A DNA stretch of 64,000 bases, taken from NCBI GenBank assembly GCA_030537355.1, contig JAUNNF010000003.1, forward strand, positions 62,001 through 126,000, given 5' to 3'. Below are positions 3,571 through 64,000 of this stretch, in pieces (the stretch's first letter is position 1; each line of letters begins with the position of its first letter). The stretch is from Coriobacteriia bacterium (lineage in GTDB: Bacteria > Actinomycetota > Coriobacteriia > Coriobacteriales > Eggerthellaceae). The notes below the pieces were generated by a model. The model was not told the origin of the DNA. It searched no databases and was given only the letters and a program-made list of their open reading frames with translations. The position numbers were made by a program, and so were the translations under genes.

Positions 3571-3918
3571 ACAGCTGTTTATTATAGAGAATTTCCTGTA
3601 AAATCGGCAGACTATTTAGATTATTTTTAGAAAAAATACTATATTTATTTTAATAATCTTTTTTTCTTATAAGACTTTATTTTGTTAGATTATCTTGAAA
3701 TTTTCATAAATTTTTGGAAAAATCTTCCAAAATGATAGGTTGTGGGGTATTTTAATGATTTTTGGGTGTTCCATAATATCGAATCTTTAATATTTTTTTT
3801 ATCAAGAACAACATAATTGGGGTTATTTTAACATATTTTTCTTTTATCTATTTATGCATACCCCACAACCTATCATTTTGGAACTAATTTTGAAATATTT
3901 TTGAAGATTTGATGAAAT
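3571..3918. other. Intergenic region with one inverted-repeat element
   Basis: There is no gene in these 348 bases. The region is very AT-rich and holds the upstream region of the tRNA-Leu gene plus one copy of the ~159 bp inverted-repeat element annotated separately. No intrinsic terminator with a short loop is evident. Confidence 0.7.
3725..3883. repeat. Inverted-repeat intergenic element, copy 1
   Basis: Perfect 26 bp arms at 3725-3750 and 3858-3883 contain the core AAAATGATAGGTTGTGGGGT, inverted at the right end. They enclose about 107 bp of AT-rich, non-coding sequence. The same arms recur near 17.6, 40.3 and 43.5-43.9 kb. The element lies just past the prmC stop codon. I see no flanking target-site duplication. 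It may be a non-autonomous transposable element (MITE-like) or a long-range RNA hairpin. Confidence 0.85.
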
Positions 3919-17553: not shown

Positions 17554-17624
17554 TTAATTTTGTTTGTTTATCTATTTATTTATTTGGTTTATTAAAATAA
17601 CAAAAGTAGAGAATAATAAAATAC

Positions 17625-17823
17625 AATACCCACAACCTATCATTTTGTACAATAATTCAATAAATTTTGACACAAATTGTCAAATTTAATAGGTTGTGGG
17701 GTATAAAATATATTTTTAACACTATATCTACAATAAAATCTATAAGTTGAAGTAATTTCTAAACAATTATGAACTTAATTATAGAAATTTTATATACAAA
17801 TACCCCACAACCTATCATTTTGG
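17625..17823. repeat. Inverted-repeat intergenic element, copy 2 (three arms)
   Basis: The 314 bp between two convergent genes (17554-17867) holds three arms of the element: an imperfect right-type arm at 17625-17649 (one C missing), a left-type arm at about 17684-17704, and a perfect right arm at 17800-17823. The outer pair 17687-17704 / 17800-17817 matches base for base except near the tip. A short palindrome TTTGACA/TGTCAAA lies between the first two arms. The rest of the gap is AT-rich with no gene. It looks like a nested or rearranged copy. Confidence 0.8.
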
Positions 17824-40340: not shown

Positions 40341-40483
40341 CTAAAACAATAGGTTGTGGGGTATAAAATTTAACGAAATTTCACAAAATTGATAAAACAC
40401 AACCAAAATATTTCAAAATGCTTAAATTTAATTAGAATTAATCAATAAATTAACACAAAATACCCCACAACCTATTGTTTTAG
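40341..40483. repeat. Inverted-repeat intergenic element, copy 3 (co-varied arms)
   Basis: Arms at 40341-40364 and 40460-40483 are perfectly complementary over 24 bases. Relative to copy 1 the outer part reads ACAATAGG instead of ATGATAGG, and the other arm carries the matching change CCTATTGT. One mismatch further out, three more bases pair. The loop is AT-rich and unrelated to the other copies. It lies between two convergent genes (40274-40555), which otherwise contains no gene. Confidence 0.88.
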
Positions 40484-40555
40484 ACATTTTGATAAAAGAT
40501 TTATATAATTTAAATCAAATTGAACTCCGTGATTCAGGCACGAATTTTTAAATCT

Positions 40556-41392
40556 TTACAAACAATTTTTATTGTTTTGGATGTAATAAAACGCATATTG
40601 CTGCATAATTCCTGCAACGTCTCCATAACCAGGTAAAGGATTTTTGCCAGCATAGTAATGGTCAATTATCTTTTGAATCCACGTATCAACAGGCGCACAT
40701 TCCACTCTCCCGTAAGCAAAAAGCGCAACACAATTGGCCACTTTCATGCCAACACCTTTTATCTGCATTAAAGAATCCAGAAGCTCGTTGGTTGTAAGTT
40801 TGTCCAACGCAAACAAATCAGGTGGATTAGTGGCCAGTCCACATATATATCCTTCCCTATAGCCCAAACCACAGTCGCAAATGTCTTTATCGGCAAGTTG
40901 ATCAGGGCAAGGAAAAAGGTGGAAGTTATCCTGAATATCCTGAATGCCATGATGATTAATTTCAATTCTATCACCATATTTTTGACAAAGCACTTCCACA
41001 CAAGATTTAATTGCAGGGATACTCTTACGCTGCGATATTACAAAAGACACAAGAGTCTCCCAAGGATCCTGCCGTAATATCCGAATTCCACGAGAATACT
41101 CTTCCGCTCGTTTCATGAATTTGTCATTGTGTTTAATATCACGAGCAATACTACCGTAATCACGATCGAGGTCAAAGTACTCAACCCAAAACTTATCCCA
41201 GCTTGCGTTTGTTAATATTCTATAATTATTGGATTGTGTAATTTCGCGAACAGGTTTTATATACAAAACATTCTTGCCCGAGACAAATCGGTAATAGCCA
41301 TTCTCCAAAAGCCGTGCTCTAAAACACTGGCCAGAATCAATAATCATATCCAAGTCAAAATTATCTTTAATTGTAATTTCCTTAGCTAGCAT
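40556..41392 (-). CDS. 8-oxoguanine DNA glycosylase-like HhH-GPD protein
   Basis: A 278-residue base-excision repair glycosylase. It has an OGG-type N terminus (DLDMIIDSGQCFRARL), a helix-hairpin-helix (LMQIKGVGMKVANCVALFAYG) and the catalytic Asp in CAPVDTWIQKII. It should excise oxidised purine. The Lys expected at the OGG1 active site would lie in the RKSIPAIKSC region, with Lys plausibly at the S-Q-R-K position. An extended -10 box (TGTTATAAT) ends six bases before the ATG, so the message is leaderless. Confidence 0.88.
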   Translation of the reverse strand: MLAKEITIKDNFDLDMIIDSGQCFRARLLENGYYRFVSGKNVLYIKPVREITQSNNYRILTNASWDKFWVEYFDLDRDYGSIARDIKHNDKFMKRAEEYSRGIRILRQDPWETLVSFVISQRKSIPAIKSCVEVLCQKYGDRIEINHHGIQDIQDNFHLFPCPDQLADKDICDCGLGYREGYICGLATNPPDLFALDKLTTNELLDSLMQIKGVGMKVANCVALFAYGRVECAPVDTWIQKIIDHYYAGKNPLPGYGDVAGIMQQYAFYYIQNNKNCL

Positions 41393-41398
41393 AAATCA

Positions 41399-41404
41399 AT
41401 TATA
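41399..41404 (-). promoter_or_regulatory. Leaderless extended -10 box of the glycosylase gene
   Basis: Minus strand TGTTATAAT: the hexamer TATAAT ends six bases before the ATG at 41392. The TGn extension compensates for a poor -35. Confidence 0.65.
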
Positions 41405-41510
41405 ACAAGAAAAAATTTTGATTCTTGCCAAAATAATTTGCACCCTTCAATTCAAATTTTGATAATATAGGCACTAGCCGTTAACTCAAAGTTTAAAAAA
41501 GGAGACGCCT

Positions 41511-42449
41511 ATGTCAGAAAACATGTTTGACCCAGATGTTTACTACAATGAACTCCAGAAAAACGTCGAGCAAATTCAAAAAATTACAGATCTAAAACCT
41601 GATGTCGCAATAGTGCTCGGCAGTGGACTAGATCACTTTGTTAGCCAACTGGAAGTGGAAGCTGAAATAAGCTTTTCCGAGCTTGACAACTTCCCAGTAA
41701 GCACAAACAAAGCACATAAAGGCAAGTTTATCCTCGCCAAAGCAAAAGGCACAAGGCTTATTTGCATGTCAGGGCGTATCCATTATTATGAAGGCTACCC
41801 AATGCGAGACGTTGTCAAACCAATCCGCTTGATGAATATGCTTGGGGCCAAAACAATCATTATCACTCACTCAGTGGGCGCCATCAATCCGTTTTACAAA
41901 GTCGGAGATTTTGTTTCTGTGCGCGACCACATTTCAATGTTTGTGCCATCACCTCTTGTTGGTCCAAACATCTCGCAGCTCGGTGACGATTTCACAGACA
42001 TGACCAACATCTACGACGACGACATCAACCACGTGCTCTACGAAATCGCCCGCGACAACCACCTAAAGCTCAACCAGGGTGTTATGGTTCAATCCTCGGG
42101 CCGTCAATATGAAAGCCCAGCTGAAACCAAAATGCTTCATGCACTTGGTGCAGACATCGTTGGCATGAGTTCAACTTGCGAGGCAATCGCAGCGCGTCAT
42201 GCGGGTATGAGGATCACAGAAATTGCATGCATCACCAATATGGCAGGCGGTCTACAAGATGTTGTCACCGACGAAGAAGTAAAAGCTCGAGCCGTTGCCG
42301 TCAATAAAGGTTTCTCTGCACTTGTCAATGGTATTCTTGAATTTTTAAAAGACGAGTACGACCTTAAGCTCACATACAAGCGCTTCAAAACAGCTGAAGC
42401 TATAATCCAAATGGAAGAGGAAGAGAATAAACAATCGCCGGATAATTAA
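41511..42449 (+). CDS. Purine nucleoside phosphorylase, family I
   Basis: A 312-residue trimeric-type PNP. Signatures are VLGSGLDHFV, GRIHYYEGYPM, TNKAHKGKF, SVGAINPFYKVGDFV, and MSSTCEAIAARHAGMRI with CITNMAGG. It cleaves inosine and guanosine (or their deoxy forms) with phosphate for purine salvage. An acidic C-terminal extension (QMEEEENKQSPDN) is longer than usual. AAAAGGAGA precedes the ATG. Its last four bases overlap the convergent STAS gene. Confidence 0.92.
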   Translation: MSENMFDPDVYYNELQKNVEQIQKITDLKPDVAIVLGSGLDHFVSQLEVEAEISFSELDNFPVSTNKAHKGKFILAKAKGTRLICMSGRIHYYEGYPMRDVVKPIRLMNMLGAKTIIITHSVGAINPFYKVGDFVSVRDHISMFVPSPLVGPNISQLGDDFTDMTNIYDDDINHVLYEIARDNHLKLNQGVMVQSSGRQYESPAETKMLHALGADIVGMSSTCEAIAARHAGMRITEIACITNMAGGLQDVVTDEEVKARAVAVNKGFSALVNGILEFLKDEYDLKLTYKRFKTAEAIIQMEEEENKQSPDN

Positions 42450-42721
42450 TCCACACTAGGACTCTCAACGCTCATAATCGCTGTAAAGCCAATATTCTCA
42501 AAAATTGTATAGACGCTTTGGCTGACGTTTATTATTCTGATGTCGCCAATTTTCTTTTCATACTTAAGAAAAACGCGCAGGCCCGCAGAAGTAATGTGAT
42601 CAACCTTCTCAAAATCAATAATCAGACAGTTAGGGGTCTTATCCGCAATCTTAGCCTCGATATATTTATCGACTTCAGAGGCATTGCCTGAATCAATATT
42701 TCCTGACAGTTGAATTTGCAT
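42446..42721 (-). CDS. STAS-domain protein (anti-anti-sigma-factor-like)
   Basis: A 91-residue single STAS domain. Its core strand LIIDFEKVDHITSAGLRVFL matches SpoIIAA/RsbV proteins, with the phosphorylatable Ser in TSAGL. Such proteins bind anti-sigma factors. No kinase or sigma gene is near. The -10 box TACAAT is seven bases from the ATG, so the message is leaderless. Confidence 0.85.
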   Translation of the reverse strand: MQIQLSGNIDSGNASEVDKYIEAKIADKTPNCLIIDFEKVDHITSAGLRVFLKYEKKIGDIRIINVSQSVYTIFENIGFTAIMSVESPSVD

Positions 42722-42728
42722 GCAGCAT

Positions 42729-42734
42729 ATTGTA
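42729..42734 (-). promoter_or_regulatory. -10 box of a leaderless promoter (STAS gene)
   Basis: Minus strand TACAAT lies seven bases from the ATG at 42721, without a ribosome site. A divergent extended -10 (TGATATAAT, about 42748-42756) for the NUDIX gene lies beside it. Confidence 0.55.
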
Positions 42735-42773
42735 GCAAAATATTTGTGATATAATCATATTAATGAGGTATTT

Positions 42774-43307
42774 ATGAATCTAGAAGAAAAACAGATAAGC
42801 ACGCAGCGTGTATACGACGGAGCCCTGCTCAAAGTCAATAAGGACCAGATTGAGCTCCCTAACAAAAATACTACAATCAGAGAGTACTTTAATCATCCAG
42901 GCGCATCATGCGTGGTCGCCCTGACAGATGACAACAAAGTGGTTATCGAGCGACAGTTCAGGTATCCATTTCACAGTATTATCACAGAGCTTCCTGCAGG
43001 CAAGCTTGACAAGGGCGAGGACCCGTTGGTTGCTGCCAAGCGCGAGCTCAAAGAAGAAACAGGATACACTGCCAAACGCTGGACTTACATGGGAGATTTC
43101 TATCCTTCGGTGGCCTACACTGACGAGAACATTCGCCTTTACCTCGCGCAAGATTTGACTCTAGAAGAACAACATCTTGACGATGATGAGTTTGTCGAAG
43201 TTGAACTTATAGACTTCCAAGAACTAGTTAATATGGTCATGCAAGGAAAAATTAAAGACGGCAAATCTATCGCCGCAATTCTAAAAGCCGATAAAATTAT
43301 CTCATAA
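42774..43307 (+). CDS. NUDIX hydrolase, ADP-ribose pyrophosphatase type
   Basis: A 177-residue NUDIX protein. The NUDIX box runs from GKLDKGEDPLVAAKRE to LKEETGYTA, with the REUxEExGU core intact, and is preceded by EYFNHPGASCVVALTD. It resembles NudF ADP-ribose pyrophosphatases. A GAGG ribosome site precedes the ATG. A DraG-like ADP-ribosylhydrolase lies downstream, so ADP-ribose released there could be the substrate. Confidence 0.9.
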   Translation: MNLEEKQISTQRVYDGALLKVNKDQIELPNKNTTIREYFNHPGASCVVALTDDNKVVIERQFRYPFHSIITELPAGKLDKGEDPLVAAKRELKEETGYTAKRWTYMGDFYPSVAYTDENIRLYLAQDLTLEEQHLDDDEFVEVELIDFQELVNMVMQGKIKDGKSIAAILKADKIIS

Positions 43308-43502
43308 CGCTAGAGTTTTTTGTTTTTTGGATGAGACAAGTGGAACTCGATGACGACAATCCTAATTATCATAATCACCGCAACGGCAATTTTATTGTTT
43401 TCTTAATATATGCCTTAAGAATTCAAATTGAGTTAATTACCAATTTAAAAAATCCTTTTTTCTTTAAAACATTAGAAAATTTAAAAATTTCCAACTATTT
43501 AA

Positions 43503-43679
43503 ACCAAAATGATAGGTTGTGGGGTATTTTTAATAAAAAATTGATTAGATTTGTTGTTGTGCTCGAAGTTCAAATATACAGAAAACGCTCAAACAGGTAT
43601 TTTGCAAATAATAAAACTTTGGATACTCTGAAAATCAGAAAAAATGCAATCGTCAATACCCTCAACCTATCATTTTGGT
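43503..43679. repeat. Inverted-repeat intergenic element, copy 4
   Basis: The left arm at 43503-43527 has the full core AAAATGATAGGTTGTGGGGT. The right arm at 43656-43679 is slightly altered (ATACCCTCAACC in place of ATACCCCACAACC). The loop is about 128 bases. It lies after the NUDIX gene. Confidence 0.82.
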
Positions 43680-43710
43680 CAAATTTTTGCAAAATTTTTA
43701 TAAAATAAGT

Positions 43711-43864
43711 TCAAAATGATAGGTTGTCGGGCTAATAATCAATTTATTTATATAAATTAACTAAATTTTAATCAACATTTTTAATTTATTAAAATTTATC
43801 CAGGGTTTTTATAATTATACAAATGTCATTAAATACAATTTAACCCGACAACCTATCATTTTGG
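43711..43864. repeat. Inverted-repeat intergenic element, copy 5 (co-varied arms)
   Basis: The arms 43711-43735 and 43840-43864 pair almost fully. Here the core reads GGTTGTCGGG instead of GGTTGTGGGG, and the opposite arm has the matching CCCGACAACC. Two positions near the ends are mismatched. The loop is about 104 AT-rich bases. Confidence 0.87.
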
Positions 43865-51844: not shown

Positions 51845-52369
51845 ATGGATTTCATACAACAAATAGGAAATTTTGCGATTCAATCTCCGCTACACACAAT
51901 TTTAATTGTGGCAATCCTTGCAATAATAGTTCTAATTATCTGCGAGACTCCGATATGTATTTATATCAAACTTAAAAGCATCAAAAAGAAAAAAATCGAC
52001 GCAATCATACACGCCCTTGTTTTTGAAGAAAAAGAAATTCTAATTGATGAAATCTATAAGTATGCCTCATTTAAAAAAGACTGGACTCAGCCCTCATACC
52101 TTATGAACTATCGATTAGTTGGCTTATACATAATCCGCAACACCACTAAAAGCGAGCATCTAATAGGCGCTGGTTACTACATATTTAAAGATGCTTACGA
52201 GCAATATTCCTCAATACCAGAAATTATAAGAGATGTACACAAAGGAGATAAATTTACATTAAAAATTTTACCGATGTTTAATTCAGGATCATACAATCTC
52301 AAAAATTTTTATGGGAGAGTGGTTAGCGAGTATAGCAATGGTGTTAGCGAGCCCTTAGCTCCCAGCTAA
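51845..52369 (+). CDS. Unknown membrane-anchored protein with repeat-derived C terminus
   Basis: A 174-residue protein with one N-terminal membrane segment (HTILIVAILAIIVLIICETP), a basic stretch (KLKSIKKKKID) and a soluble domain. No family is recognised and there is no clear ribosome site. The last residues (GVSEPLAPS) and the stop are encoded by the duplicated block containing TTAGCT-CCC-AGCTAA, so the original 3' end may have been replaced. Confidence 0.6.
   Translation: MDFIQQIGNFAIQSPLHTILIVAILAIIVLIICETPICIYIKLKSIKKKKIDAIIHALVFEEKEILIDEIYKYASFKKDWTQPSYLMNYRLVGLYIIRNTTKSEHLIGAGYYIFKDAYEQYSSIPEIIRDVHKGDKFTLKILPMFNSGSYNLKNFYGRVVSEYSNGVSEPLAPS
52355..52369. repeat. Small inverted repeat TTAGCT-CCC-AGCTAA, second copy
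   Basis: Identical to 51011-51025. The identity extends on both sides from GCGAGCCC to AATTAG, so the copy is part of a duplicated block. Confidence 0.75.
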
Positions 52370-52383
52370 TGAATTAGACTATC

Positions 52384-52546
52384 CTAGAAGCCCAAATCGA
52401 TAAGAACGCTAAAGCAATGGCCGAGTATTCAGAGAATCCAGATAATGCTCCTGAGATTTATGAAATAGATCCTTCCCCATAGAGCTTCAATTAGATATGA
52501 ATCGCGAGTATCTGGATATGGCTGTTAGGGTTTATGAGGAGGCTTA
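52384..52546 (+). pseudogene. Decayed partial copy of the 51083 coiled-coil gene
   Basis: About 160 bases match 51188-51343 almost exactly (GCCCAAATCGATAAGAACGC and following), but the N-terminal coding part and promoter are missing. After GATCCTTCC a small insertion changes the frame and makes a TAG. With the upstream block at 52349-52380 it represents a copy of 51005-51343 from which about 146 bases have been deleted. Confidence 0.8.
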
Positions 52547-52573
52547 AATTAGAATACTAAAAATAAAATAAAT

Positions 52574-53251
52574 TTATAATTTTTTGTTAAAAACCAGCTC
52601 ACAAAACTTTATAGCTACATCATTAAATTCGTAGCCTGTCATCATGTTATTTTTTCCCGTTGAACCGTCATCTTCATATGTGAAAGTTAACTCTGAATTC
52701 ATCGGCGTCAACCAGCCATTAGCGTTTAAACTAATTTCTTCAGTTTTCATATTATTGTTCTCAATTGACTTATTCCAATTATTTTTTAAATATAATAAAT
52801 CTTGATAAGGTGTGTTTTTTGTCATCAACATATAACGCCTAAACTCATTTCTGTTAATCTTTTCTTTCATTAATAAATGAGATAATTTTGAATAAATAGA
52901 AATTTTTTCATACTCTTCTGTCTTATCAATAATTTCTAAAATAAACAAATCTTCATGGTAGATTGCATGTTTTTCAATTTTTTTTGAAAATTTCTTTTTA
53001 TCTTTATCTGTTAATTCAGCATAATCCATAAGGTACAATTTTAATTTATGATAAAACAAATTATCTCTTACAGTAAAGCACAGTTTTCCAAGCTTAACAA
53101 GCTTAGAGATAACAGGTATAGTTTGTAAACCATCATCTATGTCGTTAGAAAAATCATCTGAATTAAAATAATCATGCAAACCACTACTGTCAACATGAAC
53201 AATATCCAGTATTTGATTACTTAAGTCAATTTGTTCAGATTCGCTATTCAT
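52574..53251 (-). CDS. Unknown protein at the end of the type I R-M operon
   Basis: A 225-residue, mostly helical and very AT-rich gene product, acidic at the N terminus. The central part (GLQTIPVISKLVKLGKLCF) is hydrophobic. I recognise no family with confidence. It lies 16 bases after hsdR in the same direction, so it is likely in the restriction operon. Its role may be accessory defence or none. Confidence 0.65.
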   Translation of the reverse strand: MNSESEQIDLSNQILDIVHVDSSGLHDYFNSDDFSNDIDDGLQTIPVISKLVKLGKLCFTVRDNLFYHKLKLYLMDYAELTDKDKKKFSKKIEKHAIYHEDLFILEIIDKTEEYEKISIYSKLSHLLMKEKINRNEFRRYMLMTKNTPYQDLLYLKNNWNKSIENNNMKTEEISLNANGWLTPMNSELTFTYEDDGSTGKNNMMTGYEFNDVAIKFCELVFNKKL

Positions 53252-53267
53252 AAAAATAACCTATATC

Positions 53268-56200
53268 TTAGGCAGCTTCCCCTAAGCTAACCCATGCATA
53301 TTCATAAATCTCACGATTAAGTTTTGCAAAACTATCACTATCATAGCTATCAGGTAATTTACTCCATAAAATATTTCTGATTAGGTTACTTACTTCTGCT
53401 TGAGTTTGCTCTTTGTCTCTCCAATGATCGAGTTCAGCGACTTTTGCTTTTAACTCTTCTAGTAACTCAGCAGACAACTCTTTAACTTGTTTAATTTCAG
53501 CTTTAGACAAGTCATCTTTAAACACAATCTCATACAAAGCCTGCTCTTGTTCATTCTTAAAACCTTCTTTAATGTATCTTTGCTGCTCGTCATCCAAGCT
53601 TTTTGCAAACTTCATTAACTCTTCAAAAGTTCTTTCAATTTCAGATTTATCCTGCTTTTTATTGTATTCTTCAATAATCTTTTGATAGCGCTTATAATAA
53701 TCAATACGATTTGAGTTTACTTTTAGCATATTATCAAGCTTGAATTCAATAACATCCTGCAAATCTCTTATAACAAGCTTCTTGTTCTTTACACGTTCAA
53801 ACTCTTTACTTAATAGATCAAAATTGATTTCACTGATATCAAATTTCTTTGTTTCTGTATCGTAATTTAACTCTGTACCCTCTTCTATTTCTATATTTTC
53901 ACTAATAATCCCATTAATTTTTACCATCAAATCAGTAATATCTGTATGAGACCTCTTCCTCATTAAAGCTGAATGAATTGCTGTAATTGCATCAGATTCC
54001 TTACGAGTCTCTTTGCTAATGTCTTCTCTATCTGCATACTTCATCAATGTAATAATCTCGGAGCTGTATGTTGTAAATATCTTTCTATCTTCAACAGGAG
54101 AACAAACTGAATTTGCACCTTTATTTACAAGAGCTAACTTATCGAAGTTCTTAGCATCGATTAACTCCTGTAGATCAAACCCTTTATCTTTCAAGAAACT
54201 TTTAGCGTCTTTAATAGTTTGCAAAATTTTAGCTATAAGAACTTTCTTGTCGATTGTAGGGTCTACACCACCTTTATGTCCTACATTAGCTGTGTAATCT
54301 GCAAGAGCCTTGCGCAATGCTTTTACTATACCTACATAATCAATAATCATTCCATTACTTTTGCCCTTATCAACTCTATTTGCTCTAGCAATAGCCTGCA
54401 TCAAAGTATGAGCCTTTAATGGTTTATCAAGATATAAACAAGATAGTGGTTTTACGTCAAAGCCAGTAAGCCACATCGCACATACAAACACAACTCTAAA
54501 TGGATTATCCCTGTCTTTAAACTCTTTATCGAGCTCGCGATTCATCATCTTTGCTCTATGAGGTAATATATCTAAGCCCCACTTTTCAAAAGTGGATATT
54601 TCATTTTGCTCTTGACTGATAACCACAGCCATTTCTGTTTCTTCCATCCATTTAATCTTGTCCTGAAGATCATCATACTCATCACCTGACAATGTAGACA
54701 ATAAAGACTTAAGCCTTCCAATTTCTTCCTCCCAATATTCCTGAACAAGGTTATACATACGCACACAAGTAACTTTGTTGATACTTACAAACATTGCCTT
54801 GCCGCTCTTCCACATATCGGAGTAATTCTTAACAAAATCCTTAGCAATTAACCTAAGTCTTGGTTCGGCGGTATAAAGATGAATTTCTTTAGCAAATTCT
54901 GCTTCCACCTTGTCCTGCTTGTCAGGATCTAGATCAGCTTCTTCAATAGCATCTAATATTTCTTCAGTAATCTGAGGATTCTTTAAATCTTGTATCTTTT
55001 CTCCCCTATTTTCATAGAACAGAGGAACAGTTGCATTATCTTCAACAGCACGCTTGAAATCATATATGGAAATATATCCACCAAATGTTCTAGCAGTAAT
55101 ATTATCTTCAGACAACAATGGAGTACCAGTAAACCCAATGCGAGAAGCAGTTGGTAGCAAATCCATCATATTGTTTGCGTATACACCATATTGACTTCTA
55201 TGAGCTTCATCCGAAATGATAATAATATCGTGATCAGGCTTAATTGGTTCTTTAACAGGCTGATTAAACTTTTGAATTAAAGTAAATATATAACTAGGAT
55301 TGCCTTTAAGCTTTTTAACTAAATCTTTACCGCTGCTTGCTATAAATTCAGAAGCTTTAACACTTCCCAACAATCCGCAATTTTCAAACGTATCGCTTAT
55401 TTGCGTGTTTAAATCATCTCTATCGGTCAGAATTACAAAAGTTGGAGAACCAGCAAATTTACGTTTAATCTTTTGAGTAAGAAATAACATAGAATAACTT
55501 TTACCAGAACCTTGTGTATGCCAGAATACACCTAACTTACCTTCTCTAACTTTCCTATTGCTATATGCTCTCATAGCCTCATTAACACCTAAATATTGAT
55601 GATTTCGAGCAAGGATCTTATTAGTTTTACCACCTGAATGATCAAACAATATAAAATTTTCAATAATATCTAGGAAGTTTTCTTTCTTGCATATACCTCT
55701 AAGCATTGTCTGCAATTCAACACTGCCTTCATCTTCTTCAGCTAAACGCTTCCAATCGTGAAAGAATTCATATGGACTACCCAAAGTACCAACCTTGGCC
55801 TCGTCACCATTAGAAAGTATAACCATTGCATTGTAATGAAACAATTTAGGAATCGTTCTTTGGTAATCTCGATAATTGTCTATGTAAGCATTCTCGACAT
55901 CAACATCATTTCGCTTAAATTCAATAAACAACAATGGTATACCGTTAACAAATCCAACAATATCAGTACGTCTATGATACAAATCCCCGTAAATTTTCAT
56001 TTCTTCTACAGCAAAGAAATCGTTATTTTCTGGATCATCAAAATCTATTAAAATGACGGTTTTAACTTCATCTGTTCCATCTGGCCTCTTTAAATTAACC
56101 TTAATACCATTAATAATCTGTCTATACTTTTCTTCATTTATTTGCAAAAGAGAAGAAGTGGACATATAGCTTTCAAACTTTTTAATAACATCATCTATTA

Positions 56201-56411
56201 GTTCATCGGTTATCCATGGATTTAATTTTTTAATGGATTTCTTTAAATAACGTGTAAGAAGAATCTCTTTGTATGATATACGTCCTAATGTTCCTTCAGA
56301 CCCTAGCTTTTCCTGGTTGTATGCATATACAACATGCCAACCTAACTCTTGTGATAGTAAGTTACCAGCACTTTCTTGAATTAATTTTGTTTCTGAAAAA
56401 TCATAACTCAT
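53268..56411 (-). CDS. hsdR: Type I restriction enzyme R subunit HsdR
   Basis: A 1047-residue restriction/translocase subunit. The N-terminal nuclease contains TDIVGFVNGIPLLFIEFKR (D...ExK) near residue 150-170. The helicase motor follows, with Walker A WHTQGSGKSYSM, DEAHRSQYG, GFTGTPL and a C-terminal helicase region (IARANRVDKGK). The helical C-terminal domain binds the methylase. I start at 56411, since AAAGGA sits eight bases before that ATG. It overlaps the cyclase-like gene by 11 bases. Confidence 0.95.
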   Translation of the reverse strand: MSYDFSETKLIQESAGNLLSQELGWHVVYAYNQEKLGSEGTLGRISYKEILLTRYLKKSIKKLNPWITDELIDDVIKKFESYMSTSSLLQINEEKYRQIINGIKVNLKRPDGTDEVKTVILIDFDDPENNDFFAVEEMKIYGDLYHRRTDIVGFVNGIPLLFIEFKRNDVDVENAYIDNYRDYQRTIPKLFHYNAMVILSNGDEAKVGTLGSPYEFFHDWKRLAEEDEGSVELQTMLRGICKKENFLDIIENFILFDHSGGKTNKILARNHQYLGVNEAMRAYSNRKVREGKLGVFWHTQGSGKSYSMLFLTQKIKRKFAGSPTFVILTDRDDLNTQISDTFENCGLLGSVKASEFIASSGKDLVKKLKGNPSYIFTLIQKFNQPVKEPIKPDHDIIIISDEAHRSQYGVYANNMMDLLPTASRIGFTGTPLLSEDNITARTFGGYISIYDFKRAVEDNATVPLFYENRGEKIQDLKNPQITEEILDAIEEADLDPDKQDKVEAEFAKEIHLYTAEPRLRLIAKDFVKNYSDMWKSGKAMFVSINKVTCVRMYNLVQEYWEEEIGRLKSLLSTLSGDEYDDLQDKIKWMEETEMAVVISQEQNEISTFEKWGLDILPHRAKMMNRELDKEFKDRDNPFRVVFVCAMWLTGFDVKPLSCLYLDKPLKAHTLMQAIARANRVDKGKSNGMIIDYVGIVKALRKALADYTANVGHKGGVDPTIDKKVLIAKILQTIKDAKSFLKDKGFDLQELIDAKNFDKLALVNKGANSVCSPVEDRKIFTTYSSEIITLMKYADREDISKETRKESDAITAIHSALMRKRSHTDITDLMVKINGIISENIEIEEGTELNYDTETKKFDISEINFDLLSKEFERVKNKKLVIRDLQDVIEFKLDNMLKVNSNRIDYYKRYQKIIEEYNKKQDKSEIERTFEELMKFAKSLDDEQQRYIKEGFKNEQEQALYEIVFKDDLSKAEIKQVKELSAELLEELKAKVAELDHWRDKEQTQAEVSNLIRNILWSKLPDSYDSDSFAKLNREIYEYAWVSLGEAA

Positions 56412-57135
56412 CCAAAACATCCTTTGAAATTGTTGGTTTTACTTTTTCGATCAAATCATTTACATGCATATAATGCCTTTTTAGATATAAATATTTTTCT
56501 TTGATTCTTTGAACATTATCGTATTTTATTAACATAGAATCAATATATGTAATTAATCTTTCATTATCATTTTTAAAATTTTTAACATTGTTATTTTCTA
56601 TGCAATTATATCTATCAAAATCAACATACAATAATAAATTACCAATTATAGGATTCAAAGATTCGTTGCAATTAATTTTTCTTGAAATAATGACACGAGG
56701 ATATATAGCAACTTCTTTCTCAAGTCTATAAGCTTCAGTAATTGCTGGGCCGAACATAACATCATTTTGACAAAATAATTTATTTTTAATAACAGCACCA
56801 CGAACAAAAACAGGATTTTTTAATTTTGTCAAATGACTTAATGTTAACGAAGTTGATTCGACAATCATATCTAAAGCATTTTTTTCTGAAGAGTTAATGT
56901 AAATAATTATCGTATCTGACATAATATAGAAATGGACTTTATCAAATCGTAAATCCAATTCTTCCCCGTTCATTGTCGCCTTTTTAATCTTTGACCCTTT
57001 AATTTGATGAAAGACATCCAGTATTTGATCGCATTCCCGCTTTTCAACAATATCTTGAAAACCTAATATATCCATAAAAGCAACATAGCAATCTTGATAA
57101 TTTATTTCATTAAAGTTAGACACTGATTTCCCCAT
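56401..57135 (-). CDS. Class III nucleotide-cyclase-like protein within the R-M operon
   Basis: A 244-residue protein. Its N-terminal strand AFMDILGF matches the first metal motif of class III cyclases (FxDIxGF), with Asp22. IMSDTIIIY supplies a second Asp (Asp74). RGAVIKN...FGPAITEAYRLEKEVAIYPRVIIS resembles the cyclase C-terminal core (GxxVNxAxRLExxAxPGxIxxS), with Arg137 in the stabilising position. Both metal ligands are kept, so it may make a cyclic nucleotide or another product. It overlaps hsdS (20 bases) and hsdR and has no ribosome site of its own. No effector gene is obvious. The assignment rests on motifs alone. Confidence 0.6.
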   Translation of the reverse strand: MGKSVSNFNEINYQDCYVAFMDILGFQDIVEKRECDQILDVFHQIKGSKIKKATMNGEELDLRFDKVHFYIMSDTIIIYINSSEKNALDMIVESTSLTLSHLTKLKNPVFVRGAVIKNKLFCQNDVMFGPAITEAYRLEKEVAIYPRVIISRKINCNESLNPIIGNLLLYVDFDRYNCIENNNVKNFKNDNERLITYIDSMLIKYDNVQRIKEKYLYLKRHYMHVNDLIEKVKPTISKDVLDEL

Positions 57136-58336
57136 TCATAAGTTTAGTCAATAAACGATCTCTGGCCTCAACTAGAAGAATAATTTGATTTTGAAGTATT
57201 TTTCTTTTTTTAAATATAGGTTTAACTAAAGCAGTAAAATCATCCATAATTTTTTTAGAAGGAATTAATACCTCCTTGCTTTTTACGACATTAGCACTAA
57301 TATTTTGCTGACCAGCTCCTTTTGCTATTGCGTTGAACTCATCTCTTAACTCATAGAGTTTTAAATATAACCATTGCCAAGAAACAATTTCCTCATTTGA
57401 TAATAAGCATAAAGCTGCTTGATTACAGGCTGCTTCACTTGTTAATATACCTAATCTTCCAAGAGTAGGACTGGCATAAATAGCCATTAATATTGTGTTT
57501 TCGGGAAAAAGCTTTGCAGATGAACCATTTAATCCATCTATACTAATCATTTCGTCAGATTCAAAAACAAAACAATCTTGTAGCTCTCCAGTTTTAAACC
57601 ATTTTACTGTTGGATCTTCCCAATAATTCCTTTTTTTTCGACTTGGTGTCCCACCAGCATTAATACGAACACATATATCTTTTATAGGCTTAAAAAACCA
57701 CTTATAGGGTACACCATCATTAATCATTGTATTTTTATATCCCGGAAAATGCAATTTTACAAACCATTCTTTATATAAACGTTGAATGACTTCCTCAAGA
57801 ATATTAATTTGTTTTTTACTAACGAATAATAAATTGTCGTATTTTGACAAAATTTCTACTATTTTATTTTGTACATCTAAAGGAGGATGAATTACATTTA
57901 GATTCTTTAAGTCGGACGCTCTTATACCAGCTTGAGCACACTGGTTGACAATTGAACGAATTGGAGAAAGACTAGAGTTAAAATAATAAAAATAAAATAA
58001 CGGATTAGCTTTTTTATTAAGCCTAACACGAATAATATGAGACTCAAAAACAGTTATAGGTGAAACATCCATAACAATACTGCATTTACCAGCTCCCTCC
58101 AGCACTAATGATTGACGTGCGAATAATAAATCTCCGACACGTAGTTTAGCATTTTGTTTTTCTTTATCGGTAAGTGGCACAAGCTCCATAGGGATATCGT
58201 ATATATAATCATTTGAAAACAATTCACCCATGTTAACCATTTTATACCCTTCGCCTCGGATTTTGCTTGGTTTAGTAAGTCCGTTTCGAGAATCTTCAGA
58301 ATACAATTCACCAAATTTTACAATTGGCCATTTCAT
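57116..58336 (-). CDS. hsdS: Type I restriction specificity subunit HsdS
   Basis: A 406-residue specificity subunit with two target-recognition domains, each followed by a helical spacer (LDVQNKIVEILSKYDNLL and KIMDDFTALVKPIFKKRKI). Conserved turns are LPIVKFGELY-like at the start, and VCVRINAGGTPSRKKRNYW at the start of the second domain. The two halves define a bipartite DNA target that cannot be read from sequence. The start overlaps hsdM by 4 bases, and the end overlaps the cyclase-like gene. Confidence 0.92.
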   Translation of the reverse strand: MKWPIVKFGELYSEDSRNGLTKPSKIRGEGYKMVNMGELFSNDYIYDIPMELVPLTDKEKQNAKLRVGDLLFARQSLVLEGAGKCSIVMDVSPITVFESHIIRVRLNKKANPLFYFYYFNSSLSPIRSIVNQCAQAGIRASDLKNLNVIHPPLDVQNKIVEILSKYDNLLFVSKKQINILEEVIQRLYKEWFVKLHFPGYKNTMINDGVPYKWFFKPIKDICVRINAGGTPSRKKRNYWEDPTVKWFKTGELQDCFVFESDEMISIDGLNGSSAKLFPENTILMAIYASPTLGRLGILTSEAACNQAALCLLSNEEIVSWQWLYLKLYELRDEFNAIAKGAGQQNISANVVKSKEVLIPSKKIMDDFTALVKPIFKKRKILQNQIILLVEARDRLLTKLMNGEISV

Positions 58337-60153
58337 GAAATTATCTCCTGAAGATAATTAGATATTTGCTCCATAAGATTATTAGATTCATTCTGCAAAT
58401 CTAACAACTGTTCATTAGTTTCTTTCATACGTTCATGAAAGTCAACACCATCATCTTCTTCTAGAGCAACACCAACATAAGCGCCAGGAGTTAAAGACCA
58501 TCTTTTTTCGTTAAGTTCGTCAATAACTGCAGCTTTACACAATCCAATAGTATCTTTATATTCACCTTCGCCAAACTTCTCATAAAGCCATTTGGCCTCT
58601 TTAGCTATAGTTAAAACTTCGTTAGCAGTAAAAATTTTATCGTCATAAACTTTTTGAATTTTCTTCTTGTCTCTTCCAATAGTATCGTCAACAATCTTTT
58701 TAGCCTCATCCTTTAGAGCTTTTAACTTCTTAGTAAGATTTTCAACTTGTTCATCAAAAGGCTCTTGACTATTTAGCACAGCATGATACTCGTCAAGCAA
58801 ATCCTTATACTTATCAACTTCGCCTCTATAAAGCCAGACAATGGCATTTAGATTCTTTAATTGCCATTCTGACCATTCATTAAGCGTTCTATCAACTACT
58901 GTGTAATAATTTCTCGCATCGATAAATAATACTTTGTCTTTGTTTTCTTCACGCTTATTTTTATCAAAGAACCAAAGACTACAAGGAAGAGATTTAGTAT
59001 AGAAAAAATTATTTCCTACGCTAATCATCACATCAACATCACCTGTTTTGATTAACTTTTCGCGAATAGCCTTATCTTTACCCTGGCTGTCTGTAGCAGA
59101 TGAAGCCATAACAAAACCTGCACGACCATGGTCATTTAAATAGCTATAAAAATATGAAATCCAAAGATAATTAGCATTGCTAATTTCTTTATTTTTATTA
59201 ACAGAAGGCATTCCAAAAGGAAGACGTCCTGCGTTCTCGGTAGTTTCTGCTTTGACCTTATCTACATTAAATGGAGGATTTGCCATAACATAATCGCATT
59301 TGTTGTCTAAAAGATGAGTATCATGATAAAACGTATTAGCCTCATTACCAGATTTAACAACTCCTGTGAGCCCATGAACAGCCATATTCATAAGACAAAG
59401 TTGAGCATTATATTCAACCTTCTCTTGACCATAAAAAGTCATAGATTTGTTTGCGTCCATACCTTTTTGATTTACAAAATCTCCAGATTGGATAAACATT
59501 CCACCGGAACCACAGGCTGGATCTAAAAGCGTACCTGATTTTGGCTCTAAAATATTAACTATCATCTTTACTAATGATTTTGGTGTAAAGAAAACACCAT
59601 CGTCAGTTGCAACCTGAGGAGAAAACTTCATAAGAAAATATTCATATATTCTTCCTACAACGTCACCACCAATTTCGTCTAATGCATCGTTATTAAATAT
59701 ACGCAGAAGTTCTGCGAGTACATCATCGTCAAAGTCTGTATATGTTTTAGGTAAAACACCTTTTAATTGAGGACTTTGTTCTTCAATTAAATTCATTGCA
59801 TTATTAACAACTTCACCTAAACTATTCATTTTATGCCCGTCTGCATTTTTAAGGTTAGCTGATGAAATATTTTCAGGTAAGTTAACAAGATAATCATATT
59901 GAGCTTGTTCAGGTAGATATAGAGCAGATTTAGCTTTAAAGTCGTTCGCCTCTACAGGAAGTACTTTTCCGTTACGCTTTGGTCTATCTTTTAGTATTTC
60001 CTTTTCGACAGATTTGTATCTACTGTAAGCATATTTTAAAAATAAAAGTCCCAGAACTGGCATACAGTATTGGTTTGAAGTTAGGTCGGAGTTAGATCTT
60101 AAAAGATCTGCTGATTCCCATAAATCTTTTTCTAGTTTTTTGATGTTTAACAA
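58333..60153 (-). CDS. hsdM: Type I restriction methyltransferase HsdM
   Basis: A 606-residue N6-adenine methylase. It has an N-terminal helical domain (LEKDLWESADLLRSN), the SAM motif LLDPACGSGGMFIQS and the catalytic NPPF in YVMANPPFNVDKV. The start is TTG at 60153, with AAAGG upstream. It methylates the sites protected from HsdR. Confidence 0.95.
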   Translation of the reverse strand: MLNIKKLEKDLWESADLLRSNSDLTSNQYCMPVLGLLFLKYAYSRYKSVEKEILKDRPKRNGKVLPVEANDFKAKSALYLPEQAQYDYLVNLPENISSANLKNADGHKMNSLGEVVNNAMNLIEEQSPQLKGVLPKTYTDFDDDVLAELLRIFNNDALDEIGGDVVGRIYEYFLMKFSPQVATDDGVFFTPKSLVKMIVNILEPKSGTLLDPACGSGGMFIQSGDFVNQKGMDANKSMTFYGQEKVEYNAQLCLMNMAVHGLTGVVKSGNEANTFYHDTHLLDNKCDYVMANPPFNVDKVKAETTENAGRLPFGMPSVNKNKEISNANYLWISYFYSYLNDHGRAGFVMASSATDSQGKDKAIREKLIKTGDVDVMISVGNNFFYTKSLPCSLWFFDKNKREENKDKVLFIDARNYYTVVDRTLNEWSEWQLKNLNAIVWLYRGEVDKYKDLLDEYHAVLNSQEPFDEQVENLTKKLKALKDEAKKIVDDTIGRDKKKIQKVYDDKIFTANEVLTIAKEAKWLYEKFGEGEYKDTIGLCKAAVIDELNEKRWSLTPGAYVGVALEEDDGVDFHERMKETNEQLLDLQNESNNLMEQISNYLQEIIS

Positions 60154-60174
60154 TTTGATGCCTTTCTATATTAG

Positions 60175-62736
60175 TTATTTTTTATTCTCGCATATTCTTT
60201 TATTAACCCATACATTAAATTTTTCTAAGTCTTCTTCAAGCTCTTCTGCATCTACAAAAATTAAAGGGGCGTCATCAGGATGCGAGTGTTCTGGCTCTGA
60301 ATACTTAGTCATTAAATAATCGATCAACTTACATTCTGCATTAGTTATACTTGCTAGCTTATCAATTTTATTCTTAGTTTTAACATCTTTCCTGAAGCGA
60401 ACAACAACCTCATTTAATAAAATATCTTCAACACTTTTCTCTATAGCTATACGAAAGTCTTTTGTGATATTATTATATATAGCTTGATAGGAACAATTGT
60501 CAGTTGCTTTTTTTAGCCTTGGTAATAATTCATTTTTTATCCGTTTAATCTTTTGGGGAACTCTAGATGTAAAACTAGATGTTGTATCAGGCACACCCGT
60601 TCTATTTGGGACAACGGATAATGAAATTTCATTAAAATTTAAACCAGCTTTTTCAATTTTTTCTTTTAGGCAAACGACTAAGCTAATCCTATGAGTAAAT
60701 AATATAATTTGTCTATTTGCGGCTTTCTCAACCAATCTATCAATAAATGTTTTTTCATAATTATAATCTAATGAAGAAATCGGATCATCAAGGATCATAG
60801 GTGCTTGGTTATTGCCTAAGGAAGATTCTGCAAAAAAAGCAGCTAATGAAACAATTTTTCTTTCACCGTCGCTTAAAATATCTCTAGTTTTAACGTTATC
60901 TCTTTTTATACCTTGTAGAACAATTTTAAATGGTATTTTACTTTTCTTTGCAGAACATTGTTCAAGACGTACCTTTATTCTATTATTGGTTAGTTTCTTT
61001 AATTCATCATCAAAATTATTGATATATTCCTCAGACAAAACTTTAGCCGAAACCTCTTTAGCTTTTCTAGAAATTTTTACTGTCGAAAGACTATTTTTTG
61101 CAATATCTAATTCATACAGTATTTGTAATTTTTTAATTTTTTTCTCAATAATTGAATAATTATCGACCAGTATTTTCTTAGCCCTTAATTCTTTAATACT
61201 GTCAAATATTTTTTTATTATTATCATCTTCAAGATTTTCTACTAATAAATTATATTTCTCTTTAAGAAAATTTTTGTATTTAGATAATTCATCGCATATA
61301 TCTTCTATAAAATTAACTCTGGAAAGTTTATCCCATTCTTTAATACTTAAATAACTTTGAAAAGTATTTAGTTTTTTATTTAATTTTTGTAATTTTTCTG
61401 TTTCTTTAAAACCAGTTAATTCTAGCAAAGAATTGAAATCCTCATCTGTTTTAATTACAGGAAAATCTATATAATGTTGTGAAATGTTTTCTGAACATTC
61501 AATAACGTTTTCACTTGCACAACCATTAACATATTCATTTATTCTTATCATCCTAGTACTTATTTCAGGTTTAATAATTTTTTGATTACAAAGTGGACAT
61601 ATAGTATTAATTTCACCCAATGATTTATCATTCTTTTCGTTAACATTATCAAAATATGACTTTGCGTATTCCCATAGTTTTACCCAGTTAGTATTATTTA
61701 CATTAATTCGATCGATATCATCTGATTCTTCTTTAAATAACTTCATCGCTAAATCTTTTTCAGCACATGCTTCTTTATAATCAATTAAAAATTCTGCAAA
61801 TATGTTCCAATTTTTTTCTGCAAAATAAAATTGAAATTGAATCAAATAAGATTCTAATATATTAATATTTTTTATCTGACTTTTAAGTAGTGAGATTTGT
61901 TGCTTTAAAAAATCTTCATTAATTGTATTTTCTAAATCTTTTAGCTTTTTTTTATCATTGTCTGACCAGTTACTTTTAAATTCAGAAATAGCAGTTGTTC
62001 TCGAAATATTTGTGTATTTTCTATAAGATTCTGTCTGTTTTAATTCATCAGGGAAACAAATATCTTCAATATTAAGTTGCTGTTCTTGGATTACTATCCG
62101 ATTTTTTATATTTTCAGCAATTTGTACTAAATTTTCAAAATACCTTAAAATGTATGGGATATAAGTTGTTCTTTTACTTCTATCTACATACACATTAGAT
62201 ATATCTGAATCAAATACTGATATGTTAGAAAACATTGCTGGGTACTCTTTGCATTCACCATTAAGATCACAGGCATATTTATTCTCATTGTTATCTACAT
62301 CCTCAACAAAAATTTCAACACTAGGAGGCTCATATTCTTCTTCGTAAATATTACCTATGATGGTCTGTTCAGTAAATTCAGTAGATGATATGGTTTTAAA
62401 TATCCTGAAATAACTAGACTTACCTGTTCCGTTATCTCCGTATATTACACACATGTTATTATTATTAAATTCTAGTGGAGTTTCCGATTTAACAGCATTT
62501 ACACCTTCAACATTACTTAGTTTTCTAAAATAAAATTTAGTATCTTGGCTATCGTAATTAATATTATTGTTTATGTTAAATAACAATTTTTTGTCAGGAT
62601 GTATAGCAAGACTAGTTAAATCATTAAGCTCTTTTTCAGAAATATCTGTTTTATTAAAAAACATTTCTGAAGCTTTAATAAGCCATGGAGGCATTGAATT
62701 TATCCAGTCTATCAATTCTTGTGTTGAATGAAACAT
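60175..62736 (-). CDS. RloC/PrrC-like SMC-type ATPase, possible anticodon nuclease
   Basis: An 853-residue ABC/SMC-like ATPase. It has Walker A GDNGTGKSS (100-108), a long coiled-coil arm carrying a zinc-hook CPLC (Cys380, Cys383), signature LSDGER (621-626), and Walker B/D-loop MILDDPISSLD (647-657), the form typical of PrrC and RloC. The C-terminal region has Arg762-x3-Glu766 and a later His pair (817, 819), reminiscent of the Arg-Glu-His triad of PrrC tRNases. RloC/PrrC cut tRNA anticodon loops when restriction is blocked. It is first in the hsd operon, 21 bases from hsdM, consistent with that role. Confidence 0.72.
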   Translation of the reverse strand: MFHSTQELIDWINSMPPWLIKASEMFFNKTDISEKELNDLTSLAIHPDKKLLFNINNNINYDSQDTKFYFRKLSNVEGVNAVKSETPLEFNNNNMCVIYGDNGTGKSSYFRIFKTISSTEFTEQTIIGNIYEEEYEPPSVEIFVEDVDNNENKYACDLNGECKEYPAMFSNISVFDSDISNVYVDRSKRTTYIPYILRYFENLVQIAENIKNRIVIQEQQLNIEDICFPDELKQTESYRKYTNISRTTAISEFKSNWSDNDKKKLKDLENTINEDFLKQQISLLKSQIKNINILESYLIQFQFYFAEKNWNIFAEFLIDYKEACAEKDLAMKLFKEESDDIDRINVNNTNWVKLWEYAKSYFDNVNEKNDKSLGEINTICPLCNQKIIKPEISTRMIRINEYVNGCASENVIECSENISQHYIDFPVIKTDEDFNSLLELTGFKETEKLQKLNKKLNTFQSYLSIKEWDKLSRVNFIEDICDELSKYKNFLKEKYNLLVENLEDDNNKKIFDSIKELRAKKILVDNYSIIEKKIKKLQILYELDIAKNSLSTVKISRKAKEVSAKVLSEEYINNFDDELKKLTNNRIKVRLEQCSAKKSKIPFKIVLQGIKRDNVKTRDILSDGERKIVSLAAFFAESSLGNNQAPMILDDPISSLDYNYEKTFIDRLVEKAANRQIILFTHRISLVVCLKEKIEKAGLNFNEISLSVVPNRTGVPDTTSSFTSRVPQKIKRIKNELLPRLKKATDNCSYQAIYNNITKDFRIAIEKSVEDILLNEVVVRFRKDVKTKNKIDKLASITNAECKLIDYLMTKYSEPEHSHPDDAPLIFVDAEELEEDLEKFNVWVNKRICENKK

Positions 62737-62851
62737 AATGTATTATTCCTCTTTATGAAACTTAATTGACTTATGTGTTGTTATTAGACTTATTTTACAT
62801 AGGTATTCTATAACCAGACGACCAGGTTTATTATTTTTAAATTTATACTCA

Positions 62852-63190
62852 TTAAAGTTTTTCGTTTAGCTTATCTAATCCCTTATTCATTAAGCCTTTG
62901 AGTTTTTCATTTCTTTCGACCTTTTTTTGTTGCTTAACCACGTCATCAGGATTCCAATCATAACCACAATCTTGACAAATAGCTAATTTAGATTTAACAA
63001 TTTTGGATTTATTAGTACCTTTACTTTTCTTCCACACTAAATTTGACATACCAAGAGTAGCAACTGCAGTAAATCCACGAGCTGCATTATTTGCATGGCC
63101 TCCAAGACCCACACCTTTTTTTGATGTTTTTATCTTATCATCAACAACCTGAACATTAACGTTTTCGCTATCACAATTAGGACATATCAT
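62852..63190 (-). CDS. Small zinc-ribbon protein of unknown function
   Basis: A 112-residue protein with two CxxC pairs (CPNCDSENVNV at the start and CQDCGYDW at about 80) forming one zinc ribbon, a glycine-rich middle (GVGLGGHANNAARGF) and a lysine-rich helical tail. AAAGGAGG precedes the ATG. It lies upstream of the R-M operon with its own probable transcript. Its function is unknown. Confidence 0.7.
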   Translation of the reverse strand: MICPNCDSENVNVQVVDDKIKTSKKGVGLGGHANNAARGFTAVATLGMSNLVWKKSKGTNKSKIVKSKLAICQDCGYDWNPDDVVKQQKKVERNEKLKGLMNKGLDKLNEKL

Positions 63191-63241
63191 TTTAGCCTCC
63201 TTTTACTGTACGTTATTGTACTACAAAACAAAGGAAATCCT

Positions 63242-63256
63242 TTAGCTACGAGCTAA
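63242..63256. repeat. Small inverted repeat TTAGCT-ACG-AGCTAA
   Basis: The same stem as at 51011 and 52355 but with a different loop. It lies in a gap of 185 bases (63191-63375) that also contains CCTCGCCACT twice and no gene. Confidence 0.6.
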
Positions 63257-63375
63257 ATAATAAGAGAGATCTTCACACAGCCTTGCAACCTCCCACTCAT
63301 CCTCGCCACTCCTCCTCGCCACTAACTACCACAAAGTCTCGCCAACTTAGTCTCGCAACTATATACCCTCAATAA

Positions 63376-63690
63376 TTAACGCTTAACCTTCATCTTACCA
63401 CAAGTTTTTACGAACTTAATCGAATCTGGACAACCATTAGTAAAATAATAGTGGATTTCCATTGTTTCATCAAAAGCGGCTAATCTCACTTTATCGTCTT
63501 TAACTAATGCGTATTGAGGAGTACCGACTATGCCTTTTCGCTTAAAGCCATATACTATATAACCATTAAATGTAGCTTTTCTGTAATAACCATCAGATGA
63601 AGAGAATTTTGAATTAAGTTGATCCAGTTGGGATTTGATACTGGTTTCTAAGTGCTTTGAGTTTGTTTGTTTATGAGTTTTGGTTGGCAT
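63376..63690 (-). CDS. Unknown small basic protein
   Basis: A 104-residue basic protein (many Lys) with a beta-rich core containing YYRKATFNGYIVYGFKRKG and ending CGKMKVKR. No family is recognised. GAGAAAGA lies upstream of the ATG. It is divergent from the RNA II transcript of the type I toxin-antitoxin-like locus and 34 bases from its promoter. Confidence 0.6.
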   Translation of the reverse strand: MPTKTHKQTNSKHLETSIKSQLDQLNSKFSSSDGYYRKATFNGYIVYGFKRKGIVGTPQYALVKDDKVRLAAFDETMEIHYYFTNGCPDSIKFVKTCGKMKVKR

Positions 63691-63723
63691 TATGTATCTT
63701 TCTCGTTAATTTTGATTTACCTA

Positions 63724-63752
63724 TTGCTTATAGACAAATAGTGTTGTACAAT
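63724..63752 (+). promoter_or_regulatory. Promoter of the antitoxin-like RNA (RNA II)
   Basis: TTGCTT (63724-63729), 17 bases, TACAAT (63747-63752). The RNA start is expected near 63759. Confidence 0.75.
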
Positions 63753-63758
63753 ATCAGT

Positions 63759-63827
63759 GCTGCCGTGGGAACGGTTAGCCTAAAAGCTTTGACCGCTCAC
63801 CAATTGTATTGGGAGCGGTCCGTTTTT
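63759..63827 (+). ncRNA. Antitoxin-like small RNA (RNA II), Fst/par type
   Basis: About 68 nt from the predicted start to the T run of the bidirectional terminator. It carries GGAACG and GCCTAAAA, which are repeated in direct orientation at 63928-63940, where the opposite strand is transcribed into the toxin mRNA leader. The two RNAs can therefore pair there and across the shared terminator. This is the known logic of the pAD1 par antitoxin, whose RNA II is of similar length. Confidence 0.7.
63791..63826. terminator. Bidirectional intrinsic terminator shared by RNA I and RNA II
   Basis: GACCGCTC (63791-63798) pairs with GAGCGGTC (63813-63820), and inside it CCAAT pairs with ATTGG, with one bulged A. 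CGTTTTT follows on the plus strand and AAAGCTTTT on the minus strand. The plus direction is the stronger. Confidence 0.85.
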
Positions 63828-63903
63828 AATGACGAAGGCTAAGTCCCAAGGTCAATCCGACAGAGAAACAGCCAAGGCATAAACAAAGTGTGCTTATATC
63901 CAT
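63826..63903 (-). CDS. Fst-like type I toxin peptide, 25 residues
   Basis: A short hydrophobic peptide beginning MDISTLCLCLGC and ending SVGLTLGLSLRH, long enough for one membrane span. It is too short for usual gene finders. GGAGGAGG stands seven bases before the ATG, one of the best ribosome sites in the window. The VGLxLxxxxR pattern recalls the end of the membrane part in Fst (FVGLVLEMISR). In that family the peptide damages the membrane unless the antisense RNA blocks translation. The proline common in Fst is absent, so the family call rests mainly on locus architecture. Confidence 0.65.
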   Translation of the reverse strand: MDISTLCLCLGCFSVGLTLGLSLRH

Positions 63904-64000
63904 AAGCTTCACCTCCTCCCTAGACGAGGAACGCCTAAAATGGAGGCTAACCGCTACCCACATACTGGCAGCACCTTGACTCGAGATTTTAGCACGCTTG

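Follow-up and report, generated by a model that had tools for sequence, protein, structure and literature searches.

What does it mean when the two arms of an inverted repeat appear to have changed together? The question is raised by a family of intergenic inverted-repeat elements in a 64,000-nucleotide stretch of a Coriobacteriia bacterium genome, which we call the window (C9:62001-126000 in genome G000, an assembly of 1.51 Mb in 19 contigs). In the interval 40341-43864 of the window, two copies had been noticed to carry matched changes in both arms, and the original prediction offered two readings: either pairing of the arms is selected, in RNA or in a cruciform, or some copying mechanism makes the two arms alike. 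Following the family through the whole genome and into other Eggerthellaceae, we came to favour the copying half of that choice and to disfavour the pairing half. From their geometry, the elements look more like DNA loops held by a protein than like folded RNA, and template switching between the inverted arms is the best explanation for most of the paired arm changes.

The matched changes themselves were confirmed. With the ten elements of the genome called e1 to e10, so that copies 3, 4 and 5 of the interval are e5, e6 and e7, CA replaces TG at positions 5-6 of both e5 arms (ACAATAGG at 40346-40353 of the left arm and its partner CCTATTGT at 40471-40478 of the right), and both arms of e7 carry C16 plus TA at 21-22. 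Over core positions 1-22 of all ten elements, we counted 9 matched derived changes where permutation of the right arms gave a mean of 2.9 (p = 0.0027; p = 0.0044 when all arms were reassorted). Identity within elements over the core-19 positions was likewise elevated (176/190 versus 167.6, p = 0.002). The matched changes lie well above the permutation mean, so the excess is real, and the argument that they are unlikely to have arisen by separate drift of the arms holds up moderately well. Matching is not a rule, however: the same set contains 21 unmatched arm positions, distributed over e2, e4, e6, e7, e8, e9 and e10 and thus found also in copy 4, inside the interval that prompted the question. 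Thirteen of the 21 are transversions, which are beyond rescue by G-U wobble. Some of the unmatched positions at 19-21 reflect one lost G rather than separate substitutions. Whereas the arm cores of several elements are identical, up to five positions differ in others (e8, for example, at 5, 6 and 15). The matched changes cluster in tracts, at positions 16, 21 and 22 in e7 and at positions 5 and 6 plus the flanking position 0 in e5.

A profile search of the whole genome returned exactly 21 arms, making up 10 complete elements and 1 unpaired arm. True arms (37-58 bits) score far above the next best match (15 bits), and 20 of the 21 stand in inverted pairs, or doublets. The elements are confined to contigs C8, C9 and C17, and seven of the ten fall within 72 kb of C9. 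Each arm has a 25-bp core, AAAATGATAGGTTGTGGGGTATTTT, preceded on its outer side by CC; it is not palindromic and has no GTAG or CGTC tag at either end. Outside the arms, A-tracts start near -30, -21, -10 and 0, approximately one helical turn apart. The spacers are AT-rich and resemble one another no more than shuffled sequence does, with the exception of an oriented middle motif, CTGG..TTTTAT, recovered by Gibbs sampling over the ten spacers (log-likelihood 106.5 versus a shuffled maximum of 83.7). Where elements or arms are tandem neighbours (e6/e7, e9/e10 and the unpaired arm e4x with e4), the core-to-core gap is 36 bp in 3/3 cases.

The same architecture with other arms was found by inverted-repeat scans in four or more further genera of the family, represented by genomes G015, G004, G044 and G003, of which parts were sampled; the genomes carrying elements span ~36% to 67% G+C. 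In G015, 106 arm matches correspond to ~53 elements with arms of AAAAATGGTCAAAACTTCCGACTTTCCA type, lengths of 141, 152-153 or 163 bp, and the middle motif TGGAGAACACTGGGCAAACAG. In the G+C-rich G004 (67%), 185 kb contain ~15 elements whose arms are of several types, and their middle motif is shared with G044 and G003 (GACCTGGGnAAAC). Arms of G004 and G044 consist of conserved blocks around a variable block, and in G015 and G004 arms and centre appear by eye to be alike in a TGG..AAA-like core. The arm type turns over between species: judged by sequence searches, the G000 arm is confined to its own genome among the genomes searched, with only three weak partial matches elsewhere in the family, a handful of scattered hits among GTDB genomes, roughly the estimated chance level, and none in IMG/VR, where arms of the G015/G004 type are likewise absent. 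The end pattern AAAATGRT, sought across the order, had several real copies in G000 and G015 alone, and samples of G049, G054, G002, G023, G009 and G011 (45-120 kb each) yielded no repeated family. Literature searches returned no published report of such elements in Eggerthellaceae. Half of the sampled G015 copies (12/24) have common flanks, most of these lying within a repeated unit of ~600 bp. That unit is 88-97% identical between copies, ends near CTGCCTATATGCC, carries many elements, and occurs at L114, L122, L131-L134, L137, L139, L142 and L143.

What the elements of different genera hold in common is their spacing. In G000, arm-to-arm lengths are 139, 149-151, 160 and 171 bp, made up of arm-to-middle distances of 52/53, 63 and 74 and middle-to-arm distances of 12, 22-24, 33 and 44; the total length is phased with a period near 10.5 bp, significantly so even with equal lengths collapsed to one event (p = 0.003). 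With the T in the TG of the arm and the T in the central CTGG as end points, the arm-to-centre distance falls within 1 bp of 65, 75, 85 or 96 for almost every element in G000, G015, G004 and G044. This series proceeds in steps of one helical turn and is kept despite unrelated arms. Arm-to-arm phases are also concentrated (0.96, 0.96, 0.85 and 0.92 in G000, G015, G004 and G044) around means that are nearly the same in absolute terms (0.41, 0.49, 0.40 and 0.36 turns, respectively), so that whole-turn spacing at near-equal phase extends over four genera. With equal lengths collapsed within arm subfamilies, 0/20,000 random sets were equally phased, and phasing in one common frame gave p = 0.0007. 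Spacing limited to whole helical turns, as in nucleoprotein sites that loop DNA, has its exception in the three elements of G003 (arm-to-centre 55/65/77). Such spacing is not predicted by an RNA loop, which argues against selected RNA pairing.

A set larger than the window also permitted the check by which independent arm changes were to be recognised. In G015, the two sides did change independently, the outcome that the original prediction had named as its refutation, with 4 matched derived changes where 4.5 were expected (p = 0.69; 12 non-redundant elements of the ~53). The outcome in G004 was different. Conserved parts of one arm type, searched alone, gave ten hits that formed exactly five pairs, whose five-base variable blocks match at 24/25 positions versus 13.6 expected (p = 0.009). 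For G044, 31/36 variable-block positions agree versus 26.5 expected (p = 0.17). Some lineages, then, do show paired arm changes, and another does not. Finding elements through their inverted repeats favours matched arms, a bias reduced by the profile search in G000, the conserved-part search in G004 and the arm search in G015.

Template switching between inverted repeats both homogenises their arms and inverts their spacers (PMC8604942). Homogenisation by this route therefore predicts spacer inversion as a second product, and one instance was found: L102:12753-12915 and L136:1360-1522 of G015 have common outer flanks and an inverted interior, the sole case among 276 G015 pairs. Among the G015 copies, twelve that lie in one type of flank all have the same orientation, so frequent switching is unlikely there. 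The tracts of matched changes, the agreement of the G004 variable block and this inversion are the observations that point to copying between arms.

On balance, and with moderate confidence, we read each copy as a nucleoprotein site acting at the level of DNA, whose paired changes come from homogenisation by template switching. Two inward-pointing arms, each a core of ~25 bp with phased A-tracts on its outer side, and the oriented middle motif would all face the same side of the helix; a putative protein would bind both arms and the centre, closing or wrapping the DNA as a loop of ~130-170 bp, with the DNA bending over the A-tracts to make so small a loop. Its role may be architectural or insulating rather than the control of one gene. 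During replication, template switching between the inverted arms would copy a change from one arm to the other as a matched tract and now and then flip the spacer, and the unmatched changes would be recent ones awaiting correction. Several points weigh against this account. The arm- and centre-binding protein is putative, there is one inversion in total, and the yeast template-switch inversions have spacers of 2-5 bp where those here are ~100 bp. The arms of G015 are not homogenised, so the process cannot be equally active everywhere. As for the geometry, G003 (n = 3) lies outside the common arm-to-arm phase, two G004 elements (L180 and L220:3499) are outliers, and placement of the middle motif is uncertain in e2, e4 and e7, for which the arm-to-centre script picked another site than the Gibbs motif. 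More tentatively, the elements may be a new kind of architectural site on the chromosomes of Eggerthellaceae, at which a loop held at three points in helical phase is recognised by a fast-evolving, lineage-specific DNA-binding protein. Arm specificity would shift between species, and even between subsets of sites within a single genome, while the 65/75/85/96 geometry and the CTGGG-type centre stay fixed.

The inverted interior could also be read as the work of a site-specific recombinase, for example a tyrosine recombinase, acting on the arms as core sites, with the conserved blocks flanking an overlap that must match and the segment between them inverting or being exchanged, as in invertons. 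The arms of G004 and G044 have the expected form, their variable block being enclosed by conserved ones and matching between the two arms of an element, and a short synapsis would require helical phasing. Exchange would also account for G015 loci L101 and L103, which have similar interiors in different flanks, and for L103 and L135, which have similar flanks and different interiors. Yet the stable orientation of the twelve G015 copies makes inversion rare, copies stand between convergent genes where a promoter switch would be senseless, and the arms of several elements, such as e8, are mismatched. No recombinase was linked to the elements, although no search aimed at tyrosine recombinases was made. 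We regard a recombinase system as unlikely to be the general explanation; its rare action is possible. A miniature mobile element, resembling either miniature inverted-repeat transposable elements (MITEs) or REPINs, in which the arms are terminal repeats for a transposase acting in trans and a short transpososome imposes the phasing, seems distinctly unlikely to us. The copy number and common flanks in G015, the turnover of arm type between species and the presence of Y1-type transposase genes in G000, G004 and G003 would fit such an element. The common internal sequence that characterises MITEs is found in part in G015 and not in G000, where the copies are alike only in arms, phased flanks and middle motif and their unrelated spacers are unlike those of recent copies. 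Moreover, the Y1 genes of G000 are on C7, C12 and C13 and its arms only on C8, C9 and C17, the Y1 gene of G004 is adjoined by other palindromes, conservation runs on beyond the arms, and inspection by eye beside them revealed no target duplication (no systematic test was applied).

Selected pairing, in which the arms form a long functional hairpin in RNA (a 3' untranslated region structure, a terminator or a small RNA) or a cruciform, is in our judgement very unlikely. It would account for matched changes above chance in G000 and G004 and for the position of the relatives' elements, which are mostly 3' of genes and divergent in only 2/22 cases with both neighbours called (open reading frame calls being rough in 67% G+C DNA). 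It is opposed by the transversions among the unmatched G000 positions, by the independence of the G015 arms and by helical spacing held across genera, and no Rfam family covered the elements at gathering score, a single sub-threshold hit being obtained.

Coordinates of the elements and their parts in the window are listed below.

Table. Elements, arms and middle motifs located in the window (window coordinates).
Feature	Position	Strand	Basis or remark
e3 left arm core	3729..3753	+	profile search
e3 middle motif TTGGGGTTATTTTA	3817..3830	+	Gibbs sampling over ten spacers
e3 right arm core	3855..3879	-	profile search
e4x, unpaired arm	17622..17646	-	profile search; 36 bp from e4
e4 arm core	17683..17707	+	TTTAA unmatched
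e4 other arm core	17797..17821	-
e5 (copy 3), whole element	40343-40481
e5 left arm core	40343..40367	+	CA at positions 5-6
e5 middle motif	40390..40403	-	Gibbs sampling over ten spacers; weak match
e5 right arm core	40457..40481	-	identical CA
e6 (copy 4), whole element	43506-43676		between copies 3 and 5
e6 left arm core	43506..43530	+
e6 middle motif CAGGTATTTTGCAA	43594..43607	+	Gibbs sampling over ten spacers
e6 right arm core	43652..43676	-	unmatched change: GAGGG here, GTGGGG in left arm
e6/e7 gap, 36 bp	43677..43712	.	AAAATTTT box common to both outward-facing arms
e7 (copy 5), whole element	43713-43862
e7 left arm core	43713..43737	+	contains TTGTCGGG
e7 middle motif CAGGGTTTTTATAA	43801..43814	+	Gibbs sampling over ten spacers
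e7 right arm core	43838..43862	-	contains matching CCCGACAA

The G000 copies occupy every kind of intergenic region: e4 and e5 lie between convergent genes, e2, e3, e6, e7 and e8 between codirectional genes, and e1, e9 and e10 between divergent genes. Control of one type of gene is unlikely given this mixture, and comparison of the genes neighbouring the copies revealed no regulated gene common to them. A promoter regulon was rejected in view of the copies between convergent genes. Four loci adjoin candidate DNA-repair genes, so judged by the look of their sequence (AlkD-like, AddA-like, OGG-like glycosylase and Mfd-like; L017:2257-2991, window 17868-20855, window 40556-41392 and C17:119994-123356). 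The tandem gaps (window 17622-17707 and 43652-43737; L020:2233-2318) contain one common AAAATTT box in otherwise differing sequence. All seven C9 elements lie in a G+C-richer stretch of ~0.40 (C9:24000-112000), beside which G+C is ~0.27-0.33 (C9:1-20000; window 52000-64000). Marking of the origin or centromere was also rejected: contig C7, where dnaA and parS are found, carries no element, and GC skew on C8, C9 and C17 has no clear single switch. The parS sequence (TGTTTCACGTGAAACA) occurs just twice in G000, near dnaA; it is very dense in G004, with 22 sites in 185 kb that are often closely grouped (L176-L180, L219-L233), and numbers 3 in 60 kb of G003 (L236) and 0 in 440 kb of G044. An association with RAYT transposases was discarded, there being no RAYT gene near the elements. 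The RAYT-like Y1 transposase gene of G004 is flanked by a GCACAGGGGACAGTTCTCCGTGC-type palindromic repeat unrelated to the elements (L239:1273-1381, 2248-2347).

The usual interpretation of dispersed intergenic inverted repeats is that they are either hairpins in RNA or dead mobile DNA. In these elements it is the helical geometry that is kept while the sequence varies freely, so that a loop held by protein can be tested directly. The elements may also provide a natural case of changes that look compensatory without any need for selection on pairing, which bears on covariation tests generally.

Among known systems, the GalR-HU repressosome has two sites ~113 bp apart and a third between them and depends on helical phase; in that system, palindromic operators serve a single promoter. 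The elements resemble this and similar DNA-loop operators in having two sites with one between and in their helical phasing, but they have numerous asymmetric sites with no link to any one class of gene. Bacterial interspersed mosaic elements (BIMEs) are mosaics of alternating repetitive extragenic palindromic (REP) sequences that bind gyrase and IHF. Alternating arm orientation, tandem units, an intergenic position that is often 3' of genes and presumed protein binding are common to BIMEs and the elements, whereas the sequences are unrelated, the arms of the elements are each non-palindromic, and their spacing is helix-phased. Template switching at quasipalindromes (PMC8604942, PMC8794818) likewise homogenises arms and inverts spacers, but it is a mutational process rather than an element and leaves the conserved helical spacing and middle motif unexplained. 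Invertons (PMC11892184, PMC8748976) likewise have a segment of 100-200 bp bounded by short inverted repeats, a likeness to which the one inverted interior adds; they differ in that the orientation of our elements is stable over 12 copies and that copies also stand between convergent genes. REPINs and REP doublets with their RAYT (PMC3116915, PMC3733652) are likewise dispersed intergenic inverted doublets with a distance bias, compensatory changes, species-specific sequence and tandem clusters. REPs, however, are GTAG-tagged palindromes, while the arms of the elements are not hairpins of their own; a RAYT gene is associated with REPINs, while none adjoins the elements; and where REPIN spacing is 71 bp, the elements span ~130-170 bp in helical steps around a conserved middle motif.

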